The notes under the pieces were generated by a model. It ran no database searches. It was given only the letters and a program-made list of their open reading frames with translations, and had not been told where the DNA came from. A stretch of 47,210 nt of DNA, taken from IMG/VR virus record IMGVR_UViG_3300034073_002088, positions 1 through 47,210 of that record. One strand, 5' to 3'. The stretch comes from a virus. The position numbers were made by a program, and so were the translations under genes. The stretch's first letter is position 1. Each line of letters opens with the position of its first letter. Of the stretch, positions 11,820 through 27,071 are shown in pieces.

Positions 11820-12341
11820 CTACGCGGCCCTCCGTAGTAAGGGGTCAAATCTCATGTACTCCTTGGGGGACAGGACCGCGCAGCCGTAGAACCAGAGCCC
11901 GATAGCATCGGCCTCGTTGTCGTCTTTCGGCTGCCAGCCATACTCGCGACACTTGATGATCGGCGGATAGGGCTTCGTGGATTTCCCGAAGCCGCCACGC
12001 CCGCAGAAGAACTTCTTCCAGGTACCCGCATCGACAGAACGCACGGGCACTTTGCGATGATGCGCGACACGCTCAGCCGTGCCCGCCAGATTGTAGAGCT
12101 TCATGAGGGTGTCCTTGCGGATCGACCCCATTGGCATGATCGGCTCCTCGTAGACGATCTGCTCCACGTCATGCTCAATGCAGAGCCGATTGAGCCATTG
12201 GGCGAAGTCGTTGAGGTATGGCCCGAGCTCGACGCCGGTCTTGGGGAGGGAGAGAACGCCGGAGACGGGGTCGCCCGCCTCCGTCGTCCCGAAGGCCCAG
12301 CCGGTCTTGGTGGCGAGATCAAGCGACAGCAGACGCGCCAT
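11820..12341 (-). CDS. RuvC-like Holliday junction resolvase
   Basis: From ATG 12341 the protein has 173 aa with the RuvC-fold acidic residues: Asp8 in LLSLDLATKTGWA, Glu65/66 in IVYEEP and Asp141/Asp145 in DDNEADAIGLW. This pattern is typical of phage crossover-junction endodeoxyribonucleases of the RuvC group, which cut branched DNA before packaging or after recombination. It overlaps the end of the ParB-like gene by 23 nt. A start at 12365 would add a weakly supported 8 residues. Confidence 0.85.
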   Translation of the reverse strand: MARLLSLDLATKTGWAFGTTEAGDPVSGVLSLPKTGVELGPYLNDFAQWLNRLCIEHDVEQIVYEEPIMPMGSIRKDTLMKLYNLAGTAERVAHHRKVPVRSVDAGTWKKFFCGRGGFGKSTKPYPPIIKCREYGWQPKDDNEADAIGLWFYGCAVLSPKEYMRFDPLLRRAA

Positions 12342-14458: not shown

Positions 14459-14527
14459 GGCTTGAGGCTCGCATCTAGCGGTCTCAAGCCATCCAACCAT
14501 CCCCTCGAGCGCGCCAAGCAGGGGATG
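14459..14527 (+). promoter_or_regulatory. Two leader hairpins, second covers the RBS
   Basis: GGCTTGAG (14459-14466) pairs with CTCAAGCC (14483-14490), and CATCCCCT (14498-14505) pairs with AGGGGATG (14520-14527). The second arm is the only Shine-Dalgarno candidate for ATG 14532, so translation of the first rightward early gene may be controlled by this hairpin, or an antiterminator may act here. Confidence 0.45.
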
Positions 14528-18550: not shown

Positions 18551-18996
18551 GCTGGGGAGAGCACATCATGAGCCTTGCAGCCCACGTCGCGAGCAAGTCG
18601 AAGGACAGCACGAAGGTCGGCGCCGTCCTTGTGGGCGATGGCAACGTCGTGATCCTGACGGCCTACAACGGCCCGCCTCGCGGCGTTGCGGACACCCCGG
18701 ACAGGTTCGAGCGTCCGGCGAAGTATCTCTTCGCCAGCCATGCGGAGGCGAACCTGATTGCCTTCGCGGCTCGCGAGGGCGTCAGGACGGCAGGCAAGGC
18801 CGTCTACTGCACGCACCACCCGTGCTCGTCATGCGCCCGCACGATGATCCAGGCGGGCATCGCTCGCATCCATGTCGGCAACGGCACCACGCGCATGCCG
18901 CCAGAGGAGTTCGACGCGGCTCGGCTCATGTTCGGCGAGGCAGGCGTCCCGGTCGTCTTGCATGAGCCGGACGTGCGGATCGTCGAGGACGGATAA
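18547..18996 (+). CDS. dCMP/CMP deaminase
   Basis: 149 aa with the zinc deaminase signature: HAEANLIAFAAREG (zinc His and catalytic Glu) and THHPCSSCARTMIQAGI (PCxxC). KVGAVLVGDGNVVILTAYNGPPRG is typical of deoxycytidylate deaminases. It would convert dCMP to dUMP for dTMP synthesis; with the DfrB-like gene at 21086 it suggests the phage supports thymidylate supply. Confidence 0.9.
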   Translation: MSWGEHIMSLAAHVASKSKDSTKVGAVLVGDGNVVILTAYNGPPRGVADTPDRFERPAKYLFASHAEANLIAFAAREGVRTAGKAVYCTHHPCSSCARTMIQAGIARIHVGNGTTRMPPEEFDAARLMFGEAGVPVVLHEPDVRIVEDG

Positions 18997-19017
18997 CAAG
19001 CAGCAGCGAACGAGACG

Positions 19018-19231
19018 GCTCGGCCTGCCTGTCCCTTGAAACCCTCCCCGGAGGTGCCGAGCCCCACCGAACGACCGGCCTAGGACCACCTGAAACCCTG
19101 GATCGGTGTGCCGGTCGCCACCACCAACAGAAAGCTCGGCCTGCGGGCATATGAAACCCTTCGAAACTGTGCCGAGCCCCACCGAACGACCGGCCTGTAC
19201 TTGCTTGAAACCCTACACCGAGCTGCCGGTC
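19018..19231 (+). ncRNA. Tandem dual-spacer hairpin array, cluster 1 (4 units)
   Basis: Units: 19018-19062, 19073-19116, 19134-19177, 19188-19231. Each is arm, CT, 9-nt variable (10 in the first), TGAAACCCT, 9-nt variable, T, complementary arm. Arms alternate GCTCGGC/GCCGAGC and GACCGGC/GCCGGTC. Linkers are conserved: CCCACCGAAC after the first type, a 17-nt GCCACCACCAACAGAAA after the second. Compensatory arm changes argue for a folded RNA. The layout fits a TIGR array (tandem interspaced guide RNA) with two 9-nt spacers per guide. The last unit is followed by GCCCTTCTTG and the ribosome binding site of the next gene. Confidence 0.8.
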
Positions 19232-19260
19232 GCCCTTCTTGAACCAACGAGGAAATCAAC

Positions 19261-19851
19261 ATGAAACCGACCACGAACCCGTCCGAAGTCCTGTCGAGCC
19301 TCATCGCGAAGCATCTGGCGATCCAGCCACAAGAGGACGCGGCCATCGCGTCTCGTGTTGCAGCGGAGATGATCGGCGACGTGACCCTAACCCGGTGGGC
19401 GCTCGAGGCATTCGTCATGGAGCGGCTGAACCGCATCGAACGGGATCATCGCCGTGATGCAATCGTGGCTGCCCGTGACGGCATGACAGCAGCGCCACGC
19501 GAGATCGCTCGGCGTCGACAAGAGGCGATACTGCGCGGCCAGATGGAGGCCACGCGAGGGCGTGTTGCGGAGCGGGCCAAGATTCTCCGCGAATACGGCC
19601 CGTACTTGATGATGGCATTCGACGGTGCCCCGCTCTACGGCATGACGCGCGACCAAGTCCTCGACATTGCCAGCCGCCGCGAGACCGTTGGGCGCACCTA
19701 CCAGCAGCAGGCCGGGTATCTGCGGGACATCGCGATCAGGCTCGGCAGCGATCAGACCGTTGCCGATGCTTGGACCGAGGCCGATCTGGCGCGGCTGTAC
19801 GTGAGGAAATTCCAAGGCGGGGAAGCGCCATTGCTTCAGGCTGCGGAGTAG
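19261..19851 (+). CDS. Unknown 196-aa protein between the two arrays
   Basis: ATG 19261 with GAGGA upstream. Entirely helical, charged sequence (ERLNRIERDHRRDAIVAARDGM; EIARRRQEAILRGQMEATRGRVAERAKIL), then a globular C-terminus (GRTYQQQAGYLRDIAIRLG). Its start ATGAAACCG resembles the array core TGAAACCCT, perhaps by chance. It lies between the two hairpin clusters and upstream of the Nop-domain gene, so it may be an accessory protein of that system or a passenger. No family recognised. Confidence 0.55.
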   Translation: MKPTTNPSEVLSSLIAKHLAIQPQEDAAIASRVAAEMIGDVTLTRWALEAFVMERLNRIERDHRRDAIVAARDGMTAAPREIARRRQEAILRGQMEATRGRVAERAKILREYGPYLMMAFDGAPLYGMTRDQVLDIASRRETVGRTYQQQAGYLRDIAIRLGSDQTVADAWTEADLARLYVRKFQGGEAPLLQAAE

Positions 19852-19857
19852 CAGAAC

Positions 19858-20124
19858 CGGGCGGCCCGGAACATCGTGAAAACCTGAATGCGTCTGCCGC
19901 CCGTCCTCAAAGCTCGGCCTGCCCGCACGTGAAACACTCTATCGCGGTGCCGAGCCCCACCAAACGACCGGCCTGTACCAGTATGAAACCCTTTATCGTC
20001 TTGCCGGTCGCCACCACCAAAAGAAAGCTCGGCCTGGACCAACGTGAAACCCTAACCGTCGCTGCCGAGCCCCACCAAACGACCGGCCTGATGCCACTTG
20101 AAACCCTGAGATGCCGTGCCGGTC
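19858..20124 (+). ncRNA. Tandem dual-spacer hairpin array, cluster 2 (5 units)
   Basis: Units: 19859-19902, 19912-19955, 19966-20009, 20027-20070, 20081-20124. The pattern equals cluster 1. The first unit has a third arm pair GGGCGGC/GCCGCCC, CC instead of CT and core TGAAAACCT; the second has TGAAACACT. All spacers differ from each other and from cluster 1. The cluster starts 7 nt after the stop of the 196-aa gene and ends 24 nt before the Nop-domain gene, so array and mRNA are probably one transcript. Confidence 0.8.
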
Positions 20125-20148
20125 GCCCTTCTCCAACAAGGAACCCAA

Positions 20149-21066
20149 ATGGACCACATCAACGCCACCATCACAGCGATGGCCGACCTTGCCCGTGAGC
20201 GTAACATTCTGATCAAGCACACAACGGCCAGCTCGAACAGGATCACAGCCGTGTGTCGCGGCTTCATCCTGAACGAGAATCCCGCGCTCGCAGCCGCATC
20301 GGTCATCACGCAGGACATGACCGACAAGCAAAAAGCCAAAGCCATGAAGGTCCGCGAGAAGATCAAGACGATGGCGCTGGCAATGGCCGAGCGGATCAAG
20401 AAGGGCAGCAAGGAAGGCGGAGACGGGCACGCTCGGGCCGCCATCGACATCATCGCGCGCAACATCAACGACGTTGCCAAGAAACGCGAGCGGATCGACG
20501 CGGACATAGGACGGCTCGCGAAGACGTTGCCAATTGCGCCGTGGGTCGACACCGTGACGGGATTCTCCCACACGCAGGCGGGTCTGATCCTGGCCGAAAC
20601 TGGCAACCTCTCGAATTACGCCACGCCGTCGCGCGTCTGGAAGCGCATGGGGCTCGCGGTGCTCAACGGTGCTGCGCAACGGCGTATCAAGGGTGACGAT
20701 GCGATCCCCCAAGGCTACGTCCCGCGCCGCCGCGCCGTGATGTACATGATCGAGGACACCGTCCTGCGGCTATCGATCACCGGGGAAAAGGAAGACCAGC
20801 CGCGCGCGTCCATCAATGAGTTTGGCGACATCTACATGCGCGAGAGGGCCAAGCGTGAGGCGCGCATCGCTGCTGGCGAGAAGCTCTGGAAGGGCGCCCA
20901 CTATCAAGCGCGCCGCATCATGGGCAAGGAATTGCTTCGGCAGATGTGGGTGGAGTGGCGCCGCCGCGTCGACATGATCGACGACATTGAGCAGCAGGAC
21001 CCCTGGGCGGACGTGCGCTTCATGCAGCGCGAGACGGCGGTCAGGCATCAGGAGGTCGCGGCTTAA
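20149..21066 (+). CDS. Nop/IS110-C-terminal-like protein (TasA-type candidate)
   Basis: 305 aa from ATG 20149 (AAGGA upstream). Residues about 1-127 are helical with a charged coiled coil ([26 protein letters not shown]). Residues about 128-205 look like the Nop domain or IS110 transposase C-terminal (Transposase_20) domain: [40 protein letters not shown] and then [14 protein letters not shown] basic helical end follows. There are no RuvC, DEDD or HNH motifs. In TIGR-Tas systems the Nop domain holds a dual-spacer guide RNA, as in box C/D snoRNPs; a nuclease-less form would bind but not cut. Position right after the arrays supports this. An IS110-derived protein is the alternative. Confidence 0.7.
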
Positions 21067-23191: not shown

Positions 23192-24385
23192 TTGGCAACT
23201 ATTGTAAAGCGTGGCGGCACCTATCACGCGCGGCACATATATAGAGTGAATGGCGTCCGCAAAGAGAAGACCAAGAGCCTCGGCACGGGGGATGCCCGTG
23301 TCGCCTACCAGCGCCTCGCCGAATGGGAGCGCGAGCTGCAAGCCAGCGAGTTCGGCGAGGTGTATCGCATCCTGATCTCCGACGCGATCATAAGGTGGCA
23401 GCAGGAGACATGGTCGGCGCTGCGGCCCAACACCATCGCGCGATACGAGACGAGCATCGCCCACATCCGCAAGCACTTCGGCGCCAAGCGGGTCGCATCG
23501 ATCACGACAAGCGATCTCGCCTCCTTCGAGGCCGTGCGCCGCCGCGCACCCGGCAGGTTCAAGTCGGACGGCAAGGGCAACGCGGTGTACGCCGCCAAGG
23601 ACAACGGCAAGAAGCTCGGCCCCCGTGTCGCTTGGGCGCCCGTCAGCGATACGACGATCCGGCGCGACTTCGCCTGCCTGTCCTCGCTCCTGACGTTCTG
23701 CGTCTCCCATCGATGGGCCGACGAGAACATCGTCGCGGGCTACCTCAAGTCCCGCAAGCAGGCGCTGGGGCGAGCCCAGGCGCGGACGCGATATCTGACG
23801 CACGAGGAGGAGGCCCGGCTGATCGCTGCCGCATGGCGCCGCAGTCAAGCGAGCGAGTTCGAGCGGCGGATGCTCCCGGCAGCGATCCAATTCGCCATCG
23901 CCACGGGGCTGCGCATATCCGAGATGATGGCCCTGACGTGGCAGGATGTGCAAAGGGGCTCACGGCCCCGAATTGCAGTTCGGGAAGGCAAGGGCGGGAA
24001 GGCCCGGATCGTCCCGTTGCAGCCATGTGCTATTTCCACACTCGACGAGATGCCCGTAGCCCACGGTGGTGGTCTGGTGTTTGCCCACGAGGACGGACGC
24101 CCGCGCGGCAATTTCGACGCCGCGTTCGCATCGGCGTGCAAGCGGGCCGGGCTGCCCGACGTGACGTGGCACGATCTTCGCCGGACGTGCGGGTGCCGTC
24201 TGCTGCAAGACCTTGAGATGAGCATGGTGCAGGTGAGGGATTGGTTGGGTCACAGCTCGGTCGCAGTGACGGAACGGCACTATGCGTTCCTCAAGCTCGA
24301 TGACCTCTTCGAGGCGCTCGAGCGTCATGCGCGAATCGATGCTCGTCCGAAGGCGGACGTTGTGCCGCTCCGTGGACGTCGCTGA
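23192..24385 (+). CDS. int: Tyrosine integrase
   Basis: TTG 23192 with AGGAGG upstream gives 397 aa. N-terminal arm-binding part, a SAM-like core-binding domain (about 60-185) and a catalytic domain with the full set: Arg in ATGLRISEM, Lys in EGKGGKARIVPL, His/Arg in WHDLRRTCG, His in WLGHSSV and Tyr in ERHYAFL. It should recombine attP at 24496-24540 with a host tRNA gene. Two small hairpins follow the stop (24392-24412, 24418-24436). Confidence 0.95.
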   Translation: MATIVKRGGTYHARHIYRVNGVRKEKTKSLGTGDARVAYQRLAEWERELQASEFGEVYRILISDAIIRWQQETWSALRPNTIARYETSIAHIRKHFGAKRVASITTSDLASFEAVRRRAPGRFKSDGKGNAVYAAKDNGKKLGPRVAWAPVSDTTIRRDFACLSSLLTFCVSHRWADENIVAGYLKSRKQALGRAQARTRYLTHEEEARLIAAAWRRSQASEFERRMLPAAIQFAIATGLRISEMMALTWQDVQRGSRPRIAVREGKGGKARIVPLQPCAISTLDEMPVAHGGGLVFAHEDGRPRGNFDAAFASACKRAGLPDVTWHDLRRTCGCRLLQDLEMSMVQVRDWLGHSSVAVTERHYAFLKLDDLFEALERHARIDARPKADVVPLRGRR

Positions 24386-25790: not shown

Positions 25791-25865
25791 TCAATGTTGC
25801 CCGCGCGCAAACCCTGCCCTTCAGGGCGGGGCAAGCGTCGGCCACCAGATGGAGCCACACAGCAA

Positions 25866-27071
25866 ATGCTAGTCCGACGCGCCAACCTTTATCGGCTTGA
25901 GCCGACACCGGAGCAGGCCATCGCGTTTGCTCAGTGGGCTGGCGCGTGTCGCTTCGTTTACAACTGCGGCCTGGAGCAGCGACGCGATTGGCATCGACAC
26001 GCGAAGCTGTCCTATGTCCAGCAGGCACGAGAGATCACAGAGGCTCGCGCAGCGTTCGATTGGCTGGCCGCCGTTCCGGTGCATGCGTTGCAGCAGGCGC
26101 TCCGCGATCTCGACACAGCATATCAGCGCTTCTTTGCGAAGCTGGGTGGCTACCCCAGGCCGCGACAGAAGGAGCGCGACGACACGTTCCGTCTGCCAGA
26201 CCCAAGCTACCTTGGCTTCAAGCGCCTATCGAAGCGGATGGGCGCAATCAAGGTTCCGAAGCTGGGATGGGTCAGGTGTCGGGACTGGCGACCGCTCGGC
26301 GGCGAGCTGCGCAACGTCACGATCCGGCGCAAGGCCGGGCACTGGTATGCAGCCATCCAATGGCAGCGCGAGATCCCTGATCCGGCACCTAAGAATGGTC
26401 CCGCCATCGGCATCGACCGCGGCGTGGCCGTGTTCGCAGCTCTGTCGGACGGCAGCAAGATTGAGCCGCTCAACTCGTTTCGGCGCATCGAGGCAAAGCT
26501 GGCGAAGCTACAACGTCGCCTCGCTCGCAAGACGAAATTCTCGGCCAATTGGCGCAAGCTGAAGGCCAAGATCAGCCGCCTGCATTCGCACGCGGCGAAC
26601 GCTCGGAAAGACTATCTGCACAAGCAGTCGACGATCATCGCCGAGAGCCAAGGCGTGGTGAAAGTCGAGAAGTTGAACGTGCGGGGCATGTCTGCGAGCG
26701 CGAAGGGGACGATTGAGGAGCCGGGCCGCAACGTGCGCGCCAAGGCCGGGCTCAACAAGTCTATCCTCGACCAGGGCTGGTCCATGTTTAGGACCATGCT
26801 CGTCTGGAAGCTGGCGGAACGTGGTGGACGCCTCGAAGAGGTGTCCGCTGCATACACCAGCCAGACCTGCTCGGAGTGCGGCGTGGTCGACGCTGCGAGC
26901 CGTTGCAGCCAGTCCGAGTTCCGTTGCATTGCGTGCGGACATTGTGCCCACGCGGACATCAACGCAGCGAAGAACATTCTCCAGGCCAGGACTTTGGCCG
27001 TAGAGCCTCCCAAGCGAACGCGGATTAAGCGCGTCGGCAAGAGGAAGCAACCCACGGAGGGCTCGCAATGA
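25866..27071 (+). CDS. tnpB: TnpB RNA-guided nuclease
   Basis: 401 aa from ATG 25866. RuvC residues are all present: Asp184 (AIGIDRGVAVFA), Glu268 (VVKVEKLNVRGM) and Asp364 (HADINAAKNIL). The zinc finger is C335-C338...C354-C357 (CSECG... CIACG). N-terminal HTH-like part MLVRRANLYRLEPTPEQAI. TnpB is the ancestor of Cas12 and cuts DNA guided by an omega RNA (reRNA) transcribed from its own 3' end. It should be active. A longer reading from 25794 crosses the left-end hairpin and is unlikely. Confidence 0.93.
   Translation: MLVRRANLYRLEPTPEQAIAFAQWAGACRFVYNCGLEQRRDWHRHAKLSYVQQAREITEARAAFDWLAAVPVHALQQALRDLDTAYQRFFAKLGGYPRPRQKERDDTFRLPDPSYLGFKRLSKRMGAIKVPKLGWVRCRDWRPLGGELRNVTIRRKAGHWYAAIQWQREIPDPAPKNGPAIGIDRGVAVFAALSDGSKIEPLNSFRRIEAKLAKLQRRLARKTKFSANWRKLKAKISRLHSHAANARKDYLHKQSTIIAESQGVVKVEKLNVRGMSASAKGTIEEPGRNVRAKAGLNKSILDQGWSMFRTMLVWKLAERGGRLEEVSAAYTSQTCSECGVVDAASRCSQSEFRCIACGHCAHADINAAKNILQARTLAVEPPKRTRIKRVGKRKQPTEGSQ

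Follow-up and report, generated by a model that had tools for sequence, protein, structure and literature searches.

The 47,210-nucleotide viral DNA analysed here (positions 1 to 47,210 of IMG/VR record IMGVR_UViG_3300034073_002088, referred to as the window) very probably encodes a phage-borne TIGR-TasA system of the stem-loop type. The locus comprises nine hairpin units with two short variable spacers each, a gene for a nuclease-less Nop-domain protein of 305 amino acids (TasA) and, between the two clusters of units, a gene for a 196-amino-acid helical protein. A first-pass annotation, made from the sequence without database searches, had proposed a TasA-type system, and this reading was upheld because the sequence profile of the protein, its fold, the box C/D anatomy of the units and the guide-like variability of their spacers all support it.

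Organization of the guide units

All nine units are on the + strand and occupy two gaps between genes, with four at 19018-19231 and five at 19859-20124. The first array is placed between a dCMP-deaminase-like gene (by Pfam) and the 196-amino-acid gene, and the second between the latter and tasA, which starts at 20149, 24 nt past unit 9, as originally annotated. The region first delimited, 18990-21066, begins too early, as the array proper starts at 19018 and positions 18990-19017 hold the end of the dCMP-deaminase-like gene and a spacer. The features of the locus are the following:

19018 to 19062, + strand: unit 1, GCTCGGC-CT-GCCTGTCCCT-TGAAACCCT-CCCCGGAGG-T-GCCGAGC; first spacer of 10 nt, total 45 nt
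19073 to 19116, + strand: unit 2, arms GACCGGC/GCCGGTC, spacers AGGACCACC and GGATCGGTG
19134 to 19177, + strand: unit 3, arms GCTCGGC/GCCGAGC, spacers GCGGGCATA and TCGAAACTG
19188 to 19231, + strand: unit 4, arms GACCGGC/GCCGGTC, spacers GTACTTGCT and ACACCGAGC
19261 to 19851, + strand: gene for the 196-amino-acid, all-helical (predicted) partner; most related loci carry a homologue 5' of tasA
19859 to 19902, + strand: unit 5, arms GGGCGGC/GCCGCCC, variant boxes (CC for CT, loop TGAAAACCT), spacers GGAACATCG and GAATGCGTC
19912 to 19955, + strand: unit 6, arms GCTCGGC/GCCGAGC, loop TGAAACACT, spacers GCCCGCACG and CTATCGCGG
19966 to 20009, + strand: unit 7, arms GACCGGC/GCCGGTC, spacers GTACCAGTA and TTATCGTCT
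20027 to 20070, + strand: unit 8, arms GCTCGGC/GCCGAGC, spacers GGACCAACG and AACCGTCGC
20081 to 20124, + strand: unit 9, arms GACCGGC/GCCGGTC, spacers GATGCCACT and GAGATGCCG
20149 to 21066, + strand: tasA, 305-amino-acid nuclease-less Nop-domain protein, N-terminal coiled coil and C-terminal Nop domain

Units of 44-45 nt follow the layout arm (7 nt)-CT-spacer A-TGAAACCCT-spacer B-T-arm (7 nt), which, as first described, fits six of them exactly; small departures occur in units 1 (the 10-nt spacer), 5 (CC and loop TGAAAACCT) and 6 (loop TGAAACACT). The 7-nt arms are perfectly complementary in all nine units and covary among three sequences (GCTCGGC/GCCGAGC, GACCGGC/GCCGGTC and GGGCGGC/GCCGCCC), with the first two alternating and the third opening the second cluster. 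A motif search returned nine units on the sense strand, none on the antisense strand and none in 200 shuffles, and the arm pairing of 100%, with ten cells changed on both sides, was equalled in none of 500 shuffles. These controls confirmed the annotated units with their perfect, covarying arms, and the 18 variable segments all differ from each other, as had been noted. When folded one by one as RNA, the nine units all formed the closing stem.

Box C (CCT) and box D (TG) motifs are present at both the edge and the loop positions of the window units. The linkers between units measure 9-17 nt, giving a repeat period of 53-61 nt, and linker length and arm type repeat together across the array, a pattern that would result from the copying of two-unit modules with replacement of every spacer. 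Two more unit-like matches in the window (12174-12215 and 14460-14510) were dismissed, as the reversed control yielded three.

Identification of TasA

Searches with the 305-amino-acid sequence as a single query retrieved PHROG families labelled 'transposase' (1.4e-13 and 1.4e-9), a weak match to the IS110 C-terminal domain and one PDB chain, 9MTY (0.0027), which is the TasR structure from the TIGR-Tas study of Faure et al. (2025; PMC12045711). A profile of 60 TasA relatives, searched against 177,635 PDB sequences, matched 9MTY TasR at 5.4e-26 and TasH at 4.5e-11, with no other convincing match. The AlphaFold2 model (predicted local distance difference test score 92; predicted template modelling score, pTM, 0.84) starts with a coiled coil and ends in a Nop domain, and the fold search ranked, in this order, TasR, TasH, the IS110 enzyme ISCro4, Nop5, IS621 and Prp31. 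No RuvC, DEDD or HNH nuclease domain was found in the protein, either by Pfam scan or in the model, where the N-terminal part consists of coiled-coil helices. Judged by its sequence profile and predicted structure, the protein is TasA, a nuclease-less Nop protein; the Nop/IS110-like C-terminal domain without a nuclease that had been read from the sequence was recovered by profile, fold search and Pfam, and the proposed structure search led to TasR, TasH, IS110 and Nop5.

Related loci and conserved unit grammar

A single-sequence protein search in IMG/VR found no TasA relatives. A scan for the array pattern revealed two other phage contigs sharing the loop repeat, both with a TasA homologue, and an alignment-based search yielded 70 viral and 10 bacterial tasA loci, including loci from Bosea, Rhizobium, Shinella, Metarhizobium, Magnetospirillum and Methylobacterium. 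An isolated and named phage, Rhizobium phage RHph_X2_25 (MW960032; locus L007, 4128-5700), also has the TasA-partner system and several stem-loop units.

A generic model of the unit (arms with 7 or more pairs, C[AT]-N8-10-[TC]G...CC[AT]-N8-10-[TC], with spacer length free between 8 and 10 nt) was applied to 82 loci and gave 316 sense units, compared with 10 in the antisense, 9 in the reversed and 4 in the shuffled controls. About 95% of the units have spacers of 9+9 nt. At edge and loop alike, box C reads CCA or CCT and box D TG or CG; these boxes and the 9+9-nt spacer lengths are kept in about 80 phages and prophages. Across loci, the edge boxes covary with the loop boxes, with a significance inflated by relatedness. 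As an independent check, four further loci from other genomes were scanned, two of which yielded 8 and 9 units while the controls gave none. In locus L008 (8397-8481, - strand), units with the loop TGAAACCCT have stems of only short TGGC/GCCA, looking intermediate between stem-loop and dual-repeat arrays.

Spacer variability

For eight homologous units from two pairs of related phages (L021/L027 and L071/L072; about 86-90% identical in aligned DNA), arms were 97.5% identical and boxes and loop 90%, compared with only 34% for the spacers, so that guides were replaced and stems preserved. Across the family, 517 of 524 nine-nt spacers were distinct, most repeats coming from closely related or identical records. 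By sequence, this variation is guide-like. Variable segments shared between relatives, which the first-pass annotation had named as the sign of protein-binding repeats, were not what these pairs showed.

The 196-amino-acid partner

A homologue of the 196-amino-acid protein is encoded in 64 of the 82 loci, nearly always directly 5' of tasA and on the same strand; most loci lacking it belong to one TasA clade or to cut contigs. A group of TasA loci with no recognisable partner gene comprises L033, L037, L044, L055, L057, L059, L069, L074 and L077. In eight bacterial genomes the partner profile gave one match apiece, always at the tasA locus, and among 298 genomes of one family the six strong TasA loci coincided with the six strong partner loci, the partner never being found alone; the many weaker IS110-like matches in these genomes had no partner nearby. 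No family in Pfam, PHROG or PDB fits the protein, ParB models matched none of 50 partner homologues, and fold searches with its structure model, which is all-helical and of modest confidence (pTM only 0.45), matched nothing. The gene had been annotated as unknown, which stands as regards known families, but its linkage in sequence identifies the protein as a conserved and tightly linked TasA partner.

According to the main text of Faure et al. (2025), which used 50%-identity clusters, TasA has no clear protein associations except a ParB-like one, and we found no description of the present partner there; it was probably missed because its family diverges below that clustering.

Guide units within the tasA reading frame

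In 27 of 52 non-redundant loci with units between the partner and the Nop core, every such unit lies inside the tasA open frame. Of the 167 units in this position in the 52 loci, 115 are in the tasA frame, compared with 6 and 3 in the other two frames. The embedded units are in the 5' portion of tasA without a constant phase, in open regions of up to 1 kb with ten units inside, and in many loci the tasA start is overlapped by the partner stop. Examples are L021 (3483-3760), L027 (2125-2401) and L034 (2845-3802), as well as L080, L087, L045, L015, L012 and others. In the window locus itself, the units are outside the tasA frame. Coding-embedded arrays were not found described in the main text of PMC12045711.

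Comparison with known systems

Stem-loop TasA arrays have already been reported to be expressed and cut into single-hairpin dual-spacer RNAs (PMC12045711). The window locus resembles the published example from a Peromyscus gut locus in its nuclease-less Nop protein, in its hairpin units with two spacers (8-12 nt in the published type) flanked by box C/D, in the palindromic arms that replace edge repeats and in the location of subarrays near tasA. It differs in its CCU box C, its almost invariant, repeat-like loop of 9 nt, the alternation of two arm sequences and the presence, between the arrays, of a conserved helical partner gene unmentioned in the main text of that study. The split of the array had been considered unusual, but three subarrays are already known in the Peromyscus locus.

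With the dual-repeat TasR and TasH systems the window shares the Nop domain, the boxes (UG for box D, CC(A) for box C), a pair of 9-nt spacers in each unit and a similar 'UG...CC' loop repeat; however, it has no RuvC or HNH domain, stems replace the edge repeats, and the units are closed hairpins with linkers. The dual-repeat type, with stemless alternating edge and loop repeats and a unit of about 36 nt, was rejected in view of the 44-45-nt units, paired arms and 9-17-nt linkers. The RNAs of about 36 nt first predicted are thus not expected; because the array is of the stem-loop type, the product should be the whole hairpin instead of a 36-nt tigRNA. The TasA-tasParB operons of Faure et al. 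(2025) likewise have a second gene adjacent to tasA and arrays around and between the two, but these are dual-repeat arrays and the partner is ParB-like, whereas the window partner is predicted to be all-helical and matches no ParB model. IS110/IS621 elements share the Nop-like C-terminal fold and a two-part guide RNA, although the window protein has no DEDD domain and the locus has many guides in place of one bridge RNA. Archaeal box C/D small nucleolar ribonucleoproteins (snoRNPs) also combine a Nop fold (Nop5) with two guides set by box C/D motifs, but no fibrillarin or L7Ae gene was recognised adjacent to the window locus, whose guides are phage-encoded and hypervariable. A CRISPR-Cas locus was rejected, as uniform longer repeats are absent and the adjacent proteins match no Cas family.

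Target searches and alternative explanations

TasR spacers A and B pair with opposite strands, and gaps of up to 2 bp are tolerated (PMC12045711). From the reported TasR cut positions we derived the form of a target on one strand, A + N0-2 + the reverse complement of B. Joined spacer pairs, a search proposed in the first-pass annotation, were compared in this form with the window, the related loci, IMG/VR and the 298 genomes, and no match beyond chance was obtained.

Several results weigh against a guide-directed TasA system in the window. The 276 units compared with the collected related loci gave no excess over control geometries. Exact scans of IMG/VR with units 3, 7, 4 and 8 returned 1, 6, 2 and 10 matches, respectively, at chance level; these fall into about nine unrelated clusters and are near the number roughly expected, about four sites in each scan. 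For three units taken from a Rhizobium prophage, no match was obtained in the 298 genomes, which include its own host. No promoter or terminator was recognised at the window locus. The window TasA forms a long isolated branch, at most 33% identical to any relative found, and to judge by this divergence it may behave differently from its relatives. Finally, two of the four further tasA loci (L110 and L112, both with the partner) contained no unit by the generic model; their arrays may have been lost or may follow another unit grammar.

The IMG/VR matches of unit 8 come mostly from one phage family. Its exact match (GGACCAACG-C-GCGACGGTT) is common to L099, L101, L102 and L104-L108, where it sits in a small conserved open frame; this is within chance for one scan and is not claimed as a target.

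Guidance to RNA, for example the mRNA of other phages or of the host, as in box C/D snoRNPs, would agree with the box C/D-like anatomy, the Nop fold common to Nop5 and Prp31 and the lack of a nuclease. We consider it unlikely, as the closest solved relatives, TasR and TasH, target DNA and TasR is reported to be inactive on RNA substrates (PMC12045711); in addition, no methyltransferase partner was recognised, and the 196-amino-acid partner has no known fold.

Somewhat less probable still is that the guides send TasA to the phage's own genome, as a repressor or an integrase aid. An integrase gene is present 2 kb downstream (23192-24385), and TasA-induced DNA bending has been proposed to aid integrases (PMC12045711). 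However, none of the nine units has a site in the window with fewer than 3 mismatches of 18-19, the best having 3-4, at chance level, and spacers are almost wholly changed between related phages, which would not be expected of guides to fixed sites. The target searches, which came back empty or at chance level, disfavour both self-regulation and a conserved host target.

The units could also be repeats bound by proteins as DNA or RNA (operators, or hairpins for packaging or mRNA stability) with neutral filler as spacers, as regular palindromic repeats in intergenic gaps might suggest. This is improbable, since the spacers keep a length of 9 nt with an almost random sequence, the box C/D motifs show conservation only in the sense orientation, and known relatives of the neighbouring Tas protein carry dual-spacer arrays. 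A decayed IS110-family transposon with its bridge RNA, to which the PHROG 'transposase' labels and the Pfam Transposase_20 matches of 20 of the 60 relatives would point, is refuted for the window by the absence of the N-terminal RuvC/DEDD catalytic domain. Also against it are the nine guide hairpins in place of one bridge RNA and the far lower scores of the IS110-like matches in the 298 genomes, which are not beside a partner.

For the stem-loop TIGR-TasA system, targets in other mobile elements are the best guess, by elimination and because TIGR systems are known to be associated with mobile elements, although we would put it at about an even chance. The first-pass annotation had suggested a repressor or competitor of other phages, a role for which these searches gave only chance-level matches.

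Proposed mechanism

The two arrays lie within the same-strand cluster of dCMP deaminase, array 1, partner, array 2 and tasA, and are probably transcribed in a single RNA. Each unit, once processed, would fold into a closed hairpin presenting two 9-nt guides, each flanked by a CCU box C and a UG box D. The loop UGAAACCCU supplies one pair of boxes, and the edges of the stem (...GGCCU and UGCC...) form the other. The two pseudo-symmetric box C/D sets may be bound by a TasA dimer to form the ribonucleoprotein, in which the two spacers would each pair with a different strand of a short target made of A, 0-2 nt and the reverse complement of B. Without a nuclease, TasA could open, bend and block the DNA, or bring in the helical partner encoded with it. 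The function would be programmable DNA binding against other mobile elements.

Other RNA-guided protein genes in the window

The phage contig also carries genes for an IscB-like protein (RRXRR + HNH; 1307-2668, - strand) and a TnpB-like protein (OrfB_IS605 + Cas12f1-like TNB; 25791-27068, + strand), so that three kinds of RNA-guided protein genes (TasA, IscB-like and TnpB-like) are found within 47 kb. Rfam, the only search made for the RNAs of the IscB-like and TnpB-like genes, gave no match in the window.

Significance

What TIGR-Tas systems do, what they target, which partners they have and how their spacers turn over are named as open questions in PMC12045711. A dedicated partner protein and coding-embedded arrays are two features for which we found no description in the main text of that study. 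The chances are about even that these loci form a separate TIGR subtype with two genes, carried by phages of alphaproteobacteria and by some others, in which TasA would act with a dedicated helical partner (an effector, or a factor for processing or spacer renewal). The guides of many members would lie inside the tasA coding sequence, one RNA being both message and guide precursor, and spacer renewal would be so fast, without a known adaptation enzyme, that relatives share stems and almost no guides. The conserved partner is now available for the study of these questions, and the simple unit grammar predicts guides genome-wide. The natural phage pairs L021/L027 and L071/L072 give a view of spacer turnover, and the prophages in Rhizobium, Shinella, Bosea and Methylobacterium, together with the sequenced Rhizobium phage, offer a route through cultivable hosts.
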